NCBI GenBank assembly: GCA_020354555.1
Contig: CP070648.1
Location: forward strand, 4,467,716-4,504,391
Source: Armatimonadota bacterium
GTDB lineage: Bacteria; Armatimonadota; Hebobacteria; GCA-020354555; CP070648
DNA length: 36,676 nucleotides
Direction: 5' to 3'
A model generated the notes under the pieces. It was not told the DNA's origin, searched no databases, and saw only the letters and a program-made list of their open reading frames with translations. A program made the translations under genes and the position numbers. This document shows, piece after piece, positions 27,673 to 35,592 of this stretch (position 1 is the stretch's first letter; each line of letters starts with the position of its first letter).

Positions 27673-29400
27673 ATGCGAGGTAGGACATTGCCTGACGAAG
27701 CCCAAGTTCAGGTCCGCGATCTGCAAGCGGAGATCGAACGGCTGCGCGCGCGGCTGGGTGAGCTGGAGCACAACAAGCGCGCTTTGGAGGAGCAACTCGA
27801 CGCGGCATCGGTGGCCACGGAAGCTCCCCCGCCGATCACGACGCAATCGGAGTTGCAGAATACGCTGCGCCTCTTCGTCAAGAAAGTGGCGATGATTCTC
27901 CAGGCCGACAAGTGCGTCATCATGCTCTACGACAAGGAGTCGGGAGAGCTTCAGGCGCAGGCGCCGGCTTTCGGCCTGACGGACGAGGAGGTGAGAACCT
28001 TCCGCGTCCGCGCGACCCATGGCGTTTCGGGGGAAGCGTTCCGGCAAGGCGAGCCGATCATCTGCGACGACATGATGTCCGATCCGCGCACGGTGAAGGA
28101 GAATGTGGCGCTGCTCAAGGTACGCAACGGCCTGACCGTCCCATTGACGCTCGAGTTCAAGGACGAGAACCAGGAGGTGATCGAGCGCCAGACGATCGGC
28201 GTCTTGCACGTCTTCAACAAGCGGGGCGGCGGGTCGTTCGAGGAAGAGGATGTCCGCCTGCTGACGGTGCTGGCGAGAAGCGCGGCGTCGGTCATCTCCA
28301 ACGCCCAGATCTTCATCGCCGTGACCAGCGCCAAGGAGCAACTCGAGTTCACGTTCCAGAGCATGCTGTCCGGGGTGCTCGTCGTCGACGTTGAGGGCAG
28401 GATACTCCTGATGAACTCGGCGGCGAGACGCATCTTCGGTGTCCCGCACGACGACGGCACCGGGCAGAGCCTGGTGAGCGTGGTGAGCAACGAGACGGTG
28501 CAGTCGCTGGTCAGCGCGTCGCTCGAGGACGCTGAGGAGAAAGCCCAGGAGGTGTCGCTGTACACGCCTGGCGAGCGCATATTCCAGGTGCAGACAGCGC
28601 TGCTGCGCGGCGAGAGCAGCGCGGTGACCGGTGTCGTTGCCACGTTCAACGATATCACCGAGCTGCGCAACGTCGAGCGCATGAAGACCGAGTTCGTGGC
28701 CAGCGTCTCCCACGAGTTGCGCACGCCGCTGACTTCGATCAAGGGGTTCGTACGGACGCTGCTGGACGACACCGACGGCTACTATGACCGCGACACGCAG
28801 GTGGAGTTCTATCAGATCATAGACCAGGAATGCGATCGTCTGGTGCGCCTCATCAACGATCTGCTCAACGTGTCGCGGATTGAAGCGGGCCGGGCGCTGG
28901 AACTCAACCTCAAGCCGGTGGACTTGCGTAACTTGATCGCGAAGGTGGTGGCGAGCCAGGAGTCGTACACGACGCGCCACCATATTCAGATGGATGTACC
29001 AGAGGCCCTGCCGACCGTGATTGCCGACGATGACAAGATTGATCAGATCTTGACCAACCTCATCAATAACGCGATCAAGTATAGCCCGGACGGCGGCGAT
29101 GTGGTGGTTTCCGCGCGAGCCACCGGCGGCAACGTGGAAGTGAGCGTCGCCGATCAGGGCATCGGCATTCCGCCGGACCACATGGACAAGATCTTCGCTC
29201 GGTTCCATCGCGTGGAGGGCGGAGATACGCGGCGCGCGGGGGGGACGGGGATCGGGCTCTTCCTCGTCAAGCATCTCGTGGAAGCCCACGCCGGACGCAT
29301 CTGGGTCGAGAGCGAGCCGGGCAAGGGGTCCACGTTCACCTTTGCGATACCGCTCAAGGCACCGGCGGAACCGGGCGCAGCCCCCGAACCTTCGGAGTAG
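27673..29400 (+). CDS. Soluble sensor histidine kinase (coiled coil, GAF, PAS, HisKA, HATPase)
   Basis: The 575-residue protein has no membrane segment, so it senses a cytosolic signal. Domains in order: coiled coil (about 12-45), GAF (58-212), PAS (226-332), HisKA with the phospho-accepting His347 in SVSHELRTPL, and HATPase_c with N box (N462-N466), G1 DQGIGIP (494-500), F box (507-512) and G2 GGTGIGL (523-529). The GAF domain, with conserved C81 and C131, could bind a small ligand or haem, but this is not decidable. No response regulator lies nearby, so it is an orphan kinase. The ATG at 27673 lacks a good ribosome binding site; GAGG is about 17 bases away. Confidence 0.93.
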   Translation: MRGRTLPDEAQVQVRDLQAEIERLRARLGELEHNKRALEEQLDAASVATEAPPPITTQSELQNTLRLFVKKVAMILQADKCVIMLYDKESGELQAQAPAFGLTDEEVRTFRVRATHGVSGEAFRQGEPIICDDMMSDPRTVKENVALLKVRNGLTVPLTLEFKDENQEVIERQTIGVLHVFNKRGGGSFEEEDVRLLTVLARSAASVISNAQIFIAVTSAKEQLEFTFQSMLSGVLVVDVEGRILLMNSAARRIFGVPHDDGTGQSLVSVVSNETVQSLVSASLEDAEEKAQEVSLYTPGERIFQVQTALLRGESSAVTGVVATFNDITELRNVERMKTEFVASVSHELRTPLTSIKGFVRTLLDDTDGYYDRDTQVEFYQIIDQECDRLVRLINDLLNVSRIEAGRALELNLKPVDLRNLIAKVVASQESYTTRHHIQMDVPEALPTVIADDDKIDQILTNLINNAIKYSPDGGDVVVSARATGGNVEVSVADQGIGIPPDHMDKIFARFHRVEGGDTRRAGGTGIGLFLVKHLVEAHAGRIWVESEPGKGSTFTFAIPLKAPAEPGAAPEPSE

Positions 29401-30061: not shown

Positions 30062-31012
30062 ATGCAAGGCTCGGCGCCACTGTTGATTGCTCTGTGCTTT
30101 CTCACCGCTGCCGCAATCGCCGCAGCGACGACCCCGCTCGTGATCGCATTCGCCTGGCGCGCCGGAGCGGTGGACCAGCCACGCAGCCGTCGCGTGCATC
30201 TGGCCCCGATGCCGACGTGGGGGGGCCTGGCGATGGTCGTTGGCTTCGGGATAACCATGGCCGCTTTGCTGTGGCGAGGCGGGGCGAGCGGCGTGCCGCC
30301 GGCCCAGATCGGTGCCGTGGTGGGCGGGGGATTCATCATCGCGCTCGTGGGTGCGATAGATGATCGTTTCGATATGCGAGCCGCGCCCAAGTTCCTCGCC
30401 CAGGTCATCTGCGCCGCGCTGTTGATACCCTTCGGCGTGAGCATCTCCGGGCTGGCAGGTCACCCGATTCCGCCGTGGTTGGGAAGCGTGCTGACGGTGG
30501 CGTGGGTGGTGAGCATCGTCAACGCCGTGAACTTCGTTGACGGACTCGACGGTCTCGCGGCAGGCGTCGTGGGCATCGCGTCCCTCGCGCTGGCGGTGGT
30601 TGCGGCGGCTCGCGGCCAGTTGGGGGCGGCGGCCCTGTCCGCTGCTCTCGCCGGATCCGCCGCCGGGTTCCTGCCCTACAATTTCAACCCGGCCCGGATC
30701 TTCATGGGCGACCTGGGGAGTCATTTTCTGGGCTATACCGCGGCCGCCACTGCGGTGCTGGGGACTTTCAAGATCGCCGCATCGGTGGCGCTCCTGGCGC
30801 CGGTGGTCGCCTTTGCCGTGCCCATCTTCGACACCCTGTGGGCGATGATCCGCCGTTATCGCAACGGGCAGTCCATAGCGCGCGCTGATCGCAACCACCT
30901 CCACCACCGCTTGCTCGACCGGGGGCTATCGCAGCGCCAAGCGGTGCTCATCATATACGCGATCAGCGCCGTGTGCTCGGCGGTCGCGATCGTGATGTCG
31001 CTGCCAACGTGA
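30062..31012 (+). CDS. Undecaprenyl-phosphate GlcNAc-1-phosphate transferase (WecA/TagO type)
   Basis: This membrane enzyme moves a sugar-1-phosphate from a UDP-sugar to undecaprenyl phosphate, starting synthesis of teichoic acid, O antigen or other glycans. The 316-residue protein has about ten membrane helices and the family motifs: RRVH at 43-46 with PTWGG, the metal-binding DD (100-101) in GAIDDRFD, NFVDGLDG (157-164), FMGDLGS (214-220), and the HLHHR loop (279-283) that marks the WecA/TagO branch rather than MraY. UDP-GlcNAc 2-epimerase follows 69 bases later, giving a typical pair for ManNAc-containing polymers. Confidence 0.9.
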   Translation: MQGSAPLLIALCFLTAAAIAAATTPLVIAFAWRAGAVDQPRSRRVHLAPMPTWGGLAMVVGFGITMAALLWRGGASGVPPAQIGAVVGGGFIIALVGAIDDRFDMRAAPKFLAQVICAALLIPFGVSISGLAGHPIPPWLGSVLTVAWVVSIVNAVNFVDGLDGLAAGVVGIASLALAVVAAARGQLGAAALSAALAGSAAGFLPYNFNPARIFMGDLGSHFLGYTAAATAVLGTFKIAASVALLAPVVAFAVPIFDTLWAMIRRYRNGQSIARADRNHLHHRLLDRGLSQRQAVLIIYAISAVCSAVAIVMSLPT

Positions 31013-31081: not shown

Positions 31082-32257
31082 TTGTCGGTGAGCAACAGGA
31101 CGGGCGAACGGAGACGCATAGCTCTGGCAATGGGTACGCGCCCGGAGGCGATCAAGATGGCGCCGGTGGTGCGGGAACTGCGGCGCTTTCCCGACGTCTT
31201 CGAAACGCGCGTCATCGCAACCGCGCAGCATCGGCGGCTGGCGGACGAGGTGCTGGATCTGTTCGACATAGAGCCGGACTACGACCTCGACGTCATGACG
31301 GCCAGGCAGAGCCTGACGCGAGTCACATCGCGTCTGCTGCAACGCCTGGAGCCGGCGCTCGCCGACGCGCGGCCGCACTTGGTGCTCGTGCAGGGGGACG
31401 CGGCAACCGCGTTCGCGGGGGCGTTGGCCGCTTATTACCAGCAGATCCCGGTCGGGCACGTCGAGGCGGGCCTGCGCACACGCGACAAGCATAACCCATT
31501 CCCGGAGGAGATCTTCCGCCGTTTGGTAACGCCGATTGCAGATCTCCACTTCGCGCCGACGAGCGGGGCGCGCCAGGCACTGATCGGCGAGAACGTGGAC
31601 CGGGGATGCATCCACGTCACCGGCAATACCGTCATAGACGCGCTGTTCTCGGTCGCCGAGCAGGATCATCCGCTCCCGTCGAAAGTGCGCCACGCCCTCG
31701 GAAGAGCCGACCGCCGTATCATTCTGGTCACCGCGCATCGCCGCGAAAACTGGGGCAAGCCTCTGCTCCAGATATGCGGCGCACTGCGCACGCTGGCCCG
31801 AGACCACCCGGACCTCCTCATCGTCTATGCGCTGCATCCCAATCCGGCGGTATCGGAAGCCGTGCGGGCGCAGCTCGCGGGTGAGAAGCACGTCGTGCTC
31901 ATCAAGGCGCCGCCGTACGAGCGCTTCGTATCGCTCATGAAGCGCTCGTACGCCGTGCTGACGGATTCCGGCGGCTTGCAGGAGGAGGCGCCGGCGTTGG
32001 GCAAGCCGGTGCTCGTGCTGCGGCGGACGACGGAGCGGCCGGAGGGCATCGCCGCCGGTGTGGCGAAGCTCGTCGGCGTCGAGCAGGACACAATCGTGGC
32101 GGCTGCCGGGCGCTTGCTGTCCGATGGCCGGGCCTACCTGCGCATGGCGCGGGCGAGCAATCCCTACGGCGACGGCAGAGCAGCCCAGCGCATCCGTCAG
32201 GCGATCCTCCACCACTTCGATCTCGGTGTGCGGCCTCGCGATTTCAAGGTCGCTTGA
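31082..32257 (+). CDS. wecB: UDP-N-acetylglucosamine 2-epimerase (non-hydrolysing)
   Basis: The enzyme converts UDP-GlcNAc to UDP-ManNAc for cell-surface polymers. The 391-residue GT-B fold protein has GTRPEAIKMAP (18-28), GHVEAGLRT (124-132), NTVIDAL, TAHRREN, ALHPNP, LTDSGG, and the TERPEG motif, as in WecB/MnaA. The start is TTG at 31082 or GTG at 31088, both without a clear ribosome binding site; the longer is given. No ManNAc dehydrogenase or glycosyltransferase follows, so the polymer cannot be named. Overlapping plus-strand frames at the 3' end belong to the next gene's open frame and are not separate genes. Confidence 0.93.
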   Translation: MSVSNRTGERRRIALAMGTRPEAIKMAPVVRELRRFPDVFETRVIATAQHRRLADEVLDLFDIEPDYDLDVMTARQSLTRVTSRLLQRLEPALADARPHLVLVQGDAATAFAGALAAYYQQIPVGHVEAGLRTRDKHNPFPEEIFRRLVTPIADLHFAPTSGARQALIGENVDRGCIHVTGNTVIDALFSVAEQDHPLPSKVRHALGRADRRIILVTAHRRENWGKPLLQICGALRTLARDHPDLLIVYALHPNPAVSEAVRAQLAGEKHVVLIKAPPYERFVSLMKRSYAVLTDSGGLQEEAPALGKPVLVLRRTTERPEGIAAGVAKLVGVEQDTIVAAAGRLLSDGRAYLRMARASNPYGDGRAAQRIRQAILHHFDLGVRPRDFKVA

Positions 32258-32333: not shown

Positions 32334-34130
32334 ATGTTCTACCTTGCGCGATTGCTGGGCCGGCCGGTCAGGGACGCTGAGGGCCGGAAGGTCGGATGGA
32401 TCAGCGATTTCCTCGTCGCCACCGCTGACCTGTTCCCGCGCGTGACCGCGGTGTCGGTCGCGTCGCGGAGCCGCCGTCCGATGCTCGTGCCGTGGCGTTA
32501 CATCGTGCGACTTGACGAGTCCGGGGCTCAGCTTTCTGCGGCGCTCGCAGATATCGAACCCGCCGTTCCGACGGACAATGAAGTGCTGCTGGGGCGGCAG
32601 CTCCTCGATCGCCAGATAGTTGATCGGGCGGGGCGCAAAGTGGTGCGCGTCAACGATTTTTCGCTCGCGCCCACGGATCACGAGTTGCGACTGGTGGGGG
32701 CCGATGTGGGGGTGCGCGGGCTGCTGCGGCGCCTGAACGTCGAGCGACCGCTCGATCGCGCGGCGAGACTCATCCGTCTGCGCTTGCCCGACAGCCTGAT
32801 TGCGTGGAACTACCTGGAGCCGCTGGAGGCGAAGTGGGATAGATTGCGCCTGCGCATGACCCATCAACGGCTCGGCGAGATGTTTCCCGCGGATCTAGCC
32901 TCTATTCTTGCGCAATTGGAGCCCGAGGCGCGACCGGCGGTGCTCGAGGCGATTGACGATCGCAAGCTGGCCGATACGCTCCCCGAGTTGGGGGATGAGC
33001 TTGAGCGGGAGATACTGACGGATATGAGCCGGGAGCGCGCCTCCGACGTGCTCGAGATGATGCCGCCGGACGAAGCCGCGGACGTCCTCGGCGACATGCC
33101 TGAGCCAGTCGCCGACGACTTACTGTCGCGCATGGAGGAGGCGGAGTCGCGAGAGCTGGAGCAGTTGCTTGCCCACCCCGATGAGACCGCGGGGGGCCTC
33201 ATGACGCCGGACTTCGTGTCCCTGCGCGACGATCTGACGGTGCAGCAGGCGATGGCGGAACTGCGCCGCATCTCGCCCGACACGGAGGGGGCCTCTTACG
33301 TCTATGTCGTGGACGAGGCGGGGCGGTTGAGAGGCGTGATATCGCTTGACGCCCTGTTCGTTGCAGCGCCCGATACGCACATTGCGGACATCATGCGGGC
33401 GGACGTCGTCGCGGTGCCTCTCGATATGGATCAAGAGGAAGTGGCCGTGACGATGTTTAAGTACAATTTCCTCAGCCTGCCGGCGATAGACGAGAACGGT
33501 ATCCTGCGCGGCGTGGTGACCGTTGACGACGCGCTGGAGGTAATGCAGGAGGAATCTGCGGAAGACCTCGGGCGCCTCGCGGGGGCGCCCAGCGATATCG
33601 GCGGACGCCGGGCGTGGGTTCTCGATGCGCTGTGGCGAGTGCCGTGGCTGATCGTGTGCGCGGCTGCGGGGCTACTCGCCTCGGCGATGATGGGCCGCGC
33701 AGCCGGGCTCGCGGAGATCGGCTGGCGGGCGGCGGCGGCGCTGCCCCTCGTCCTCGGACTGAGCGTGCGGTCCGCCAGCCAGTCGTCGGCCGTCGTGGTG
33801 CGGGCGTACGCGCTGGGCGAAGAAAGACTGCGCGATTTCGTTATCCACCTATTGGGTGAGGCCGCGGCGGCGCTCCTCGTTGGCGGGATCGCGGGCGCCA
33901 TCTCGGCGGCGGCGGCACTCAGTTGGGGCGAGCCGGCCATGGCCGGCGCACTGGCAATAGCATTGCCCCTCGGGCTCGTGGTGGGAGCAGTGATCGGGTC
34001 GGTGCTGCCAGTGGCGCTGTGGCGCCTGCGCATGGATCCGGCGGTCGCCTTGTGGCCGCTCGTGGCAGTCACGACGACCCTCGCGACGGTGCCGATCTAT
34101 GTGGCATTGCTCGTGCGAGTGAGTGTGTGA
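32334..34130 (+). CDS. PRC-barrel / MgtE-like membrane protein with CBS domains
   Basis: The 598-residue protein has two PRC-barrel repeats (about 1-75 and 82-150), an MgtE N-terminal superhelical domain (about 178-285), a CBS pair (about 290-405) and a five-helix MgtE transmembrane domain (about 430-595). MgtE proteins are magnesium channels gated by cytosolic magnesium. Here the pore motif is degenerate: counting from DPA at 568-570, the Thermus D432 position is Thr582 and N424 is Trp574, and the GGNxGTQS segment reads SVRSASQS (478-485). Magnesium conduction is therefore doubtful; a sensor or a changed specificity is possible. ATG at 32334 fits the first PRC repeat. No strong ribosome binding site is seen. 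Confidence 0.85.
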   Translation: MFYLARLLGRPVRDAEGRKVGWISDFLVATADLFPRVTAVSVASRSRRPMLVPWRYIVRLDESGAQLSAALADIEPAVPTDNEVLLGRQLLDRQIVDRAGRKVVRVNDFSLAPTDHELRLVGADVGVRGLLRRLNVERPLDRAARLIRLRLPDSLIAWNYLEPLEAKWDRLRLRMTHQRLGEMFPADLASILAQLEPEARPAVLEAIDDRKLADTLPELGDELEREILTDMSRERASDVLEMMPPDEAADVLGDMPEPVADDLLSRMEEAESRELEQLLAHPDETAGGLMTPDFVSLRDDLTVQQAMAELRRISPDTEGASYVYVVDEAGRLRGVISLDALFVAAPDTHIADIMRADVVAVPLDMDQEEVAVTMFKYNFLSLPAIDENGILRGVVTVDDALEVMQEESAEDLGRLAGAPSDIGGRRAWVLDALWRVPWLIVCAAAGLLASAMMGRAAGLAEIGWRAAAALPLVLGLSVRSASQSSAVVVRAYALGEERLRDFVIHLLGEAAAALLVGGIAGAISAAAALSWGEPAMAGALAIALPLGLVVGAVIGSVLPVALWRLRMDPAVALWPLVAVTTTLATVPIYVALLVRVSV

Positions 34131-34338: not shown

Positions 34339-35592
34339 GTGCACAGGATCCTCTTATTCCTGGCCGTGATAGGTCCCGGGCTGATTACCGCCTTCAGCGG
34401 GAACGACGCGGGGGGCATCGCGACCTACACCGTCGCCGGCGCCTCGTTCGGCTACCGGCAGCTCTGGGCCTTGCTCGTTGCGGCGCTCGGCATGATCGTC
34501 ATCAACGAGATGAGCGCCCGCATGGGCGCCGTCACCGGCAAGGGCCTGAGCGACCTGATCCGCGAGCAGTTCGGAGTGCGCTGGACCCTGTTTGCCATGA
34601 GCGCACTCCTCATCGCCAACACCGCGACCACTGTCGCCAATGTCGCAGGACTTGCGGCGAGCGCCGAGATCCTCGGCGCTCGCCTGCCACCTGTCGCCCA
34701 CTGGCTTGTCGCGCGGGCCGTGTCCGTGCCTTTGCTCGTCGCCGCCGTATGGCTGTTGATAACGCGCACGGGTTACCGCGCGGTCGAGCGGGCGTTTCTC
34801 GGCTTCACGGTCATCTTTGTGTCCTACATCATCGCCGGCTTTGCGGCACATCCGTCCTGGGAAACCGTCGTCGCGACGATGTTCGTGCCCTCGCGGCAGT
34901 GGCTCGCGGCGGACGCGCAGTTCATCCGGGTCGTGATCGCGATCATTGGCTGCACGATCGCCCCGTGGATGCAGTTCTATCTTCAGTCATCAACCGTGGA
35001 GAAGGGAATCCACGAGGCGCAGTTCCGCATGGCGCGCGTAGATGTCGTGACCGGCGCTGTCGCGGCTAACATCATCGCGGTATTCATCGTCGTCGCCGCT
35101 GCGGTACGCCTTCATCCCGCGGGCGCGGCGGTCACCACGGCTGACCAGGCGGCACTTGCGCTGGAACCGGTCGCCGGAGCCTACGCCAGCCTGTTGTTTG
35201 CCGTCGGGCTCTTCGGCGCCTCGATGCTGGCCGCGGCGGTGGTTCCGCTGTCGACCGCCTATGCCGTGTGCGAAGCCTTCGGCTGGGAGAGCGGACTCGA
35301 CCGCCGCCTGGGCGAGGCGCCGCGTTTCTTCGGGATCTTCACCGGTGTGCTGATCATTAGCGCCGTGCCGACCGTCATCCCCCGCGCCCCGCTGATTGAT
35401 CTGATGGTGTTGTCGCAGGTGGTCAACGGGTGCTTGCTGCCCGTGATCCTCGTCTTTATGCTGCTGCTGGTGAACCGTCCGTCCATCATGGGCGCGCGCG
35501 TCAACAGCCGACTGCATAACGCGATCGCGTGGGGCGTGGCGGGGGTGATCATGGGGCTCATCGCGGCAATGCTTGTCGTGGAATTCGCGTAA
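34339..35592 (+). CDS. NRAMP-related divalent metal transporter (NRMT-like)
   Basis: The 417-residue protein has about 11 membrane helices in the NRAMP/LeuT pattern. In helix 1 the canonical DPGN reads DAGG (D23, G26) followed by IATY. In helix 6 the canonical MPH reads APW (A208-W210) with QSS after. Loss of the Asn and Met metal ligands and the IATY and APW forms resemble NRAMP-related magnesium transporters (NRMT), so Mg2+ or Mn2+ rather than Fe2+ is the likelier cargo. The GTG at 34339 has GAGGAG ten bases upstream. It follows the MgtE-like gene on the same strand, which supports a magnesium link. Confidence 0.86.
   Translation: MHRILLFLAVIGPGLITAFSGNDAGGIATYTVAGASFGYRQLWALLVAALGMIVINEMSARMGAVTGKGLSDLIREQFGVRWTLFAMSALLIANTATTVANVAGLAASAEILGARLPPVAHWLVARAVSVPLLVAAVWLLITRTGYRAVERAFLGFTVIFVSYIIAGFAAHPSWETVVATMFVPSRQWLAADAQFIRVVIAIIGCTIAPWMQFYLQSSTVEKGIHEAQFRMARVDVVTGAVAANIIAVFIVVAAAVRLHPAGAAVTTADQAALALEPVAGAYASLLFAVGLFGASMLAAAVVPLSTAYAVCEAFGWESGLDRRLGEAPRFFGIFTGVLIISAVPTVIPRAPLIDLMVLSQVVNGCLLPVILVFMLLLVNRPSIMGARVNSRLHNAIAWGVAGVIMGLIAAMLVVEFA

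Follow-up and report, generated by a model that had tools for sequence, protein, structure and literature searches.

MgtE of Thermus thermophilus (2yvx/2zy9) consists of an N domain, a CBS pair, a plug helix and a five-helix membrane domain. In its pore D432 is described as essential both for the transport of Mg2+ and for the selectivity (PMC3435302), and the Mg1 site is impaired by the exchange D432A (PMC5882242). N424 is a residue of the cytoplasmic gate, and N424A raises the uptake (PMC8104411). SLC41A1, a eukaryotic MgtE relative, has retained the filter aspartates (D263 and D487), and mutating them abolishes function (PMC3435302). A different arrangement was described by Shin et al. (2014), who found an MgtE-like fragment, which is cytoplasmic only, beside the permease NrmT and proposed a feedback regulation (PMC4072509). 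Co-expression of the fragment from Acidobacterium capsulatum was without effect on NrmT function, and this NrmT carried mainly Mn2+ (PMC4072509). For EleNRMT the positions of the site have been described (PMC8806188).

The window, i.e., the whole stretch of 36,676 nt from an Armatimonadota bacterium that was analyzed here, contains a complete frame (ATG at 32334, the stop ends at 34130) for an MgtE-like protein with an additional N-terminal domain. The gene and its parts are:

32334..34130, plus strand, PRC-MgtE_N-CBS-CBS-MgtE gene, 598 aa
32334..32519, plus strand, PRC-barrel domain, residues 1-62 (Pfam PF05239, E=2e-9)
32883..33185, plus strand, MgtE_N domain, residues 184-284 (Pfam PF03448, E=2e-21)
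33381..33548, plus strand, second CBS domain, residues 350-405 (Pfam PF00571, two stretches), with the first CBS domain immediately upstream
33522..33581, plus strand, plug helix region, residues 397-416, with E407, E410 and D411 retained
33615..34124, plus strand, five predicted membrane helices, residues 428-597
33744..33782, plus strand, P471 to Q483, the place of the PX6GN pore motif, with V478-R479 instead of G-N
34035..34079, plus strand, D568 (D418 in Thermus) to T582 (D432), with W574 at N424

MgtE_N, the CBS pair and the MgtE domain (residues 471-591) all exceed the curated cut-offs of Pfam, and the protein also clears the TIGR00400 MgtE equivalog cut-off of NCBIfam (265 vs 232.75 bits). 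Together with the predicted helices (428-456, 470-493, 499-530, 534-564, and 569-597) this bears out the five-helix MgtE domain, which had been claimed in the sequence-only reading. The top fold matches of the predicted structure are MgtE, with a plug helix followed by five membrane helices; the model is a monomer of modest confidence (pLDDT 69.5) and therefore gives no information on the dimer pore. As judged from these data the protein is by descent a member of the MgtE family, but the filter Asp and the GN motif that mark the pore of an MgtE Mg2+ channel are missing. It shares with T. thermophilus MgtE the domain order from N domain to membrane domain as well as the Mg2+-sensor residues, the DP motif, P321, Q333 and other scaffold positions, but differs by the N-terminal PRC domain and by the exchanges of D432 to Thr, of GN to Val-Arg and of the gate residue N424 to Trp. 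Like SLC41A1 it has an MgtE-type membrane domain, but no equivalent of the filter Asp.

The placement of the pore residues was obtained by a phmmer alignment to MgtE of T. thermophilus (2yvx, E=7e-63, aligned span 174-592), which pairs D568 with D418, W574 with N424 and T582 with D432, and sets SVRSASQ against GGNTGNQ. Two MAFFT alignments concur, and the Thermus sequence used in them matches the 2yvx sequence over the aligned part. When the translation was read directly, no Asp or Glu was present from residue 569 to the C-terminus, so that the loss of the pore Asp is independent of any alignment and an alignment slip concealing it could be ruled out. Among 25 ordinary-pore MgtEs from many phyla D432, D418, G328 and Q333 are found in 25/25 and N329 in 23/25. 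The window protein carries Thr582 at the place of the filter Asp, and of the PX6GN motif only P471 is retained. Position 424 is variable in the same 25 proteins (Gly in 16, Ala in 5, Thr in 2, Ser in 1), with Asn only in Thermus. The exchange of N424 to Trp was thus rejected as a proof for a lost Mg2+ ligand, as the site varies and belongs to the gate. Because D432 is essential and N424 is a gate residue, T582 and the lost GN bear the argument, and W574 shows only that the gate is changed.

These results confirm what the sequence-only reading had stated on Thr582, on the altered GGNxGTQS segment and on D432 as key residue of the pore, the last in agreement with the literature cited above and with the invariant Asp of ordinary MgtEs. 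Its placement of Trp574 at N424 was also correct, but not the weight given to it. The observation is somewhat stronger than first stated for D432 and somewhat weaker for N424.

Searches of 61 genomes and of 291 genomes of the window's phylum yielded full-length PRC-MgtEs in six genomes of three families and one further copy, which is cut by a contig end. The GN motif is absent from 6/6 of these full-length proteins and the pore Asp from the 5/5 that are readable at 432, where they have T (window), L, A, A, and A, with one unreadable. At position 329 they show R (window) and five times Q, at position 424 W (window) and four times R. As the relatives have the same loss, an error in a single sequence was ruled out, and none of the readable full-length PRC-MgtEs carries the canonical residue. 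The shared feature is the loss of Asp and GN across the branch; the Thr and Trp of the window protein, for which conservation had been considered, are not shared, as the replacing residues differ. Since the pore Asp and GN were lost by the group as a whole, the PRC-fused full-length branch is unlikely to act as standard Mg2+ channel, as had been proposed from the window protein alone.

In a tree of the cytosolic domains the window protein clusters with the full-length proteins of family f2 (97/91), and all PRC-bearing proteins are separate from the PRC-less MgtEs (96/95). With regard to an origin by joining of a soluble PRC protein to an MgtE membrane part from elsewhere, the membrane-domain tree showed long branches with weak support. 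In a scan of named genomes with short exact peptide seeds almost all matches were ordinary MgtEs, and outside the phylum no PRC form of full length was detected. Open literature searches found no article that names both MgtE and the PRC-barrel, and a membrane-bound form of full length whose filter is lost appears to be undescribed so far.

The cytosolic and the membrane part were compared for their conservation. Of the positions that ordinary MgtEs conserve, the window protein keeps 41/44 in its cytosolic part (35-44 in the ordinary proteins themselves) and 16/24 in its membrane part (20-24 in the ordinary proteins). Pairwise identity among the full-length PRC-MgtEs is 53% in the cytosolic vs 35% in the membrane part, and in ordinary MgtEs 39 vs 36%. 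The acidic residues of the cytosolic Mg2+ sensor and the plug (D91, D95, D214, E216, D247, E255, E258, and D259, of which the last three form the plug set) are present in all six full-length proteins; deviations of the window protein are D250 to Glu and D226 to Asn. In its membrane scaffold R285, P287, W288, P321, R340, G405, P409, D418, P419 and P425 are retained. Soluble PRC-MgtE_N-CBS relatives end before the plug, D214 is gone in most of them, and most of the D214/E216 site is missing; they may therefore sense Mg2+ differently. At the place of the MgtE plug helix the soluble proteins that accompany an NRMT (L040-L058) have a short basic tail, often WKKRLPR-like, which could be a contact site.

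The region around the PRC-MgtE gene contains the following genes:

27673..29400, plus strand, sensor histidine kinase gene, 82% identical in G001
30062..31012, plus strand, tagO/wecA-like gene, 72% identical in G001
31082..32257, plus strand, wecB-like gene, 73% identical to its G001 counterpart
34339..35592, plus strand, NRMT-type Nramp permease gene, 417 aa (7qia E=1.6e-101, Pfam Nramp)

The permease gene follows the PRC-MgtE gene on the same strand after a gap of 208 nt. Its best PDB match is 7qia over the full length, which we take to be the NRMT of Eggerthella lenta (EleNRMT). Alignment to 7qia shows GNDAGG, TIAPW and SQ..NG in the window permease, i.e., Asp and Gly in helix 1, Ala replacing the Nramp Met in helix 6, and Gln in helix 10. 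The permease is clearly a relative of the NRMTs and keeps the site Asp, Gly, Ala and Gln of EleNRMT (PMC8806188). Unlike the known NRMT system (PMC8806188), no M-box precedes the gene, and an Rfam scan found none anywhere in the window. The only Rfam match in the window is a Ribosomal protein L10 leader (RF00557, 2489-2628). A promoter and terminator scan of the gap between the two genes gave nothing.

In the genome G001, which belongs to the same family as the window genome, the equivalent site holds an NRMT and a soluble PRC-MgtE_N-CBS gene as an inverted pair, with 48 and 43% identity to the window genes, respectively. A PRC-MgtE and NRMT module is thus present at this site in both genomes. 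The window and G001 NRMTs as sisters were rejected (p-AU 0.006), with the window NRMT on a long branch; for the window PRC-MgtE and the soluble G001 protein a sister relation was not rejected (p-AU 0.128). The permease, at least, seems to have been replaced at the site. As the site is the same, a soluble or a full-length version may be able to fill one role. The histidine kinase of the flank has a relative with 48% identity in G017 (L057:10229-11500), which lies ~4 kb from a soluble PRC/NRMT pair.

In 14 of the loci fetched from relatives, a soluble PRC-MgtE_N-CBS gene adjoins an NRMT. The full-length form adjoins an NRMT only in the window and is located elsewhere in five other genomes; in two of them, G028 and G014, a soluble PRC protein is already paired with the NRMT, and the full-length PRC-MgtE is present in addition. 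In a MAG labelled Nitrospira japonica a soluble PRC-MgtE_N-CBS gene is directly followed by an NRMT (L083:4971-7468), so the module may extend beyond the phylum. The arrangement resembles the fragment associated with NrmT (PMC4072509) in the combination of PRC, MgtE_N and CBS in this phylum, the order of sensor and NRMT, the G001 site and the position of the gene next to an NRMT. However, the published fragment is cytoplasmic only, whereas the window protein has a plug and a complete predicted five-helix membrane domain; the soluble PRC-MgtE_N-CBS proteins, too, differ from it in that they end at the second CBS with the short basic tail.

A second MgtE is encoded outside the window in the same genome (G000:C1 about 3371088-3372474; L072:4559-5974). 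It is PRC-less and, in contrast to the window protein, has kept D432 and lost D418; its GN motif is gone, too. The gene is adjoined by deoC, as are its relatives in L166 and L070. All 7/7 genomes with a full-length PRC-MgtE gene (one contig-cut) also hold such a PRC-less pore-altered MgtE. Profile searches detected no further member of either type in the 291 genomes; as the profiles were made from these very sequences, the gap in the scores is in part a consequence of how they were built. For the membrane part of the PRC-less paralogue a dN/dS of about 0.09 (one species pair, 97 codons) shows purifying selection, so there is a reason for the retention of such domains. As one CorA is encoded in the window genome as well (MgtA gave nothing above cut-off), Mg2+ uptake need not rely on either MgtE. 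A tandem pair of MgtE-like frames was seen on a contig of a Clostridiales bacterium (L147:4959-7418).

The sequence-only reading had offered a sensor, a regulator of the neighboring permease or a transporter with a new specificity. Of these three the regulator gains most from the NRMT neighbor and the soluble module in G001. Our preferred reading, held tentatively and with not quite even confidence, is that an MgtE-derived membrane dimer without standard conduction serves as Mg2+-responsive regulatory partner of the adjacent NRMT; it is preferred mainly because PRC-MgtE and NRMT form a module at one site in the window and G001. Further points in its favor are the filter residues lost from all readable full-length PRC-MgtEs, the retained sensor next to a more divergent membrane part, the 14 loci with a soluble partner and the feedback regulation that Shin et al. 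had proposed (PMC4072509). The dimer would sense cytoplasmic Mg2+ via N domain, CBS pair and plug, and its pore without Mg2+ filter would have lost standard Mg2+ conduction. At high cytoplasmic Mg2+ the sensor would close up, and this signal might reach the NRMT through contact, perhaps via the PRC domain or the membrane helices, and slow the uptake. Several points speak against it: the full-length form lies beside an NRMT only in the window, the NRMTs of G028 and G014 already have soluble PRC partners, and these partners are without the plug and may sense Mg2+ in another way. In addition, co-expression had no effect in A. capsulatum, whose NrmT carried mainly manganese (PMC4072509), and the window shows no M-box and a 208-nt intergenic gap. 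The alternative of a gated channel or transporter with a changed substrate, with plug and gating ring working as in MgtE and a filter not made for hydrated Mg2+, would explain why the plug residues are kept in 6/6 full-length proteins and lost from the pore-less soluble relatives. Much of the membrane scaffold is retained as well, so the domain probably folds and couples to the plug. However, the different residues at 432 and the Arg at 329 (window) or 424 (others) look more as if a cation filter had been lost than as if a new common one had formed, and we consider this alternative unlikely.

The co-occurrence in 7/7 genomes, the complementary copies of the window genome and the purifying selection on the paralogue (one species pair) would also fit a pairing with the second, PRC-less MgtE to an unequal dimer, which as a whole would have its own pore or sensing role. 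This is quite improbable, as only three families are involved and common ancestry could account for the co-occurrence, the genes lie >1 Mb from each other in the window genome and the gap in the profile scores is partly built in; elsewhere neither copy has D432, and pairing would thus not restore the filter. That the protein is an ordinary, perhaps weaker, Mg2+-conducting MgtE, in which the filter residues are dispensable, agrees with the TIGR00400 score and the retained D418 and plug. It is nevertheless very unlikely given the essential D432 (PMC3435302), invariant in ordinary MgtEs, and the Arg at the pore Asn. Least probable is a decaying membrane part that merely anchors the sensor or is idle: its divergence greatly outpaces that of the cytosolic part, but the frame is intact, five helices are predicted, 16/24 membrane positions and all plug residues are kept and the branch is old enough for three families.

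Going further than the preferred regulatory reading, and held with clearly less confidence, the full-length MgtE clade might have become a membrane Mg2+ receptor that has no Mg2+ pore, controls an unrelated LeuT-fold metal permease and takes the place of the soluble PRC-MgtE regulator at the site. An automatic annotation as magnesium transporter, which would follow from passing the NCBIfam equivalog cut-off, is probably incorrect. Should the regulatory reading be true, a channel was converted to a sensor for another transporter, and the locus would offer a route to the role of the MgtE-like fragments that were reported beside NrmT in 2014.
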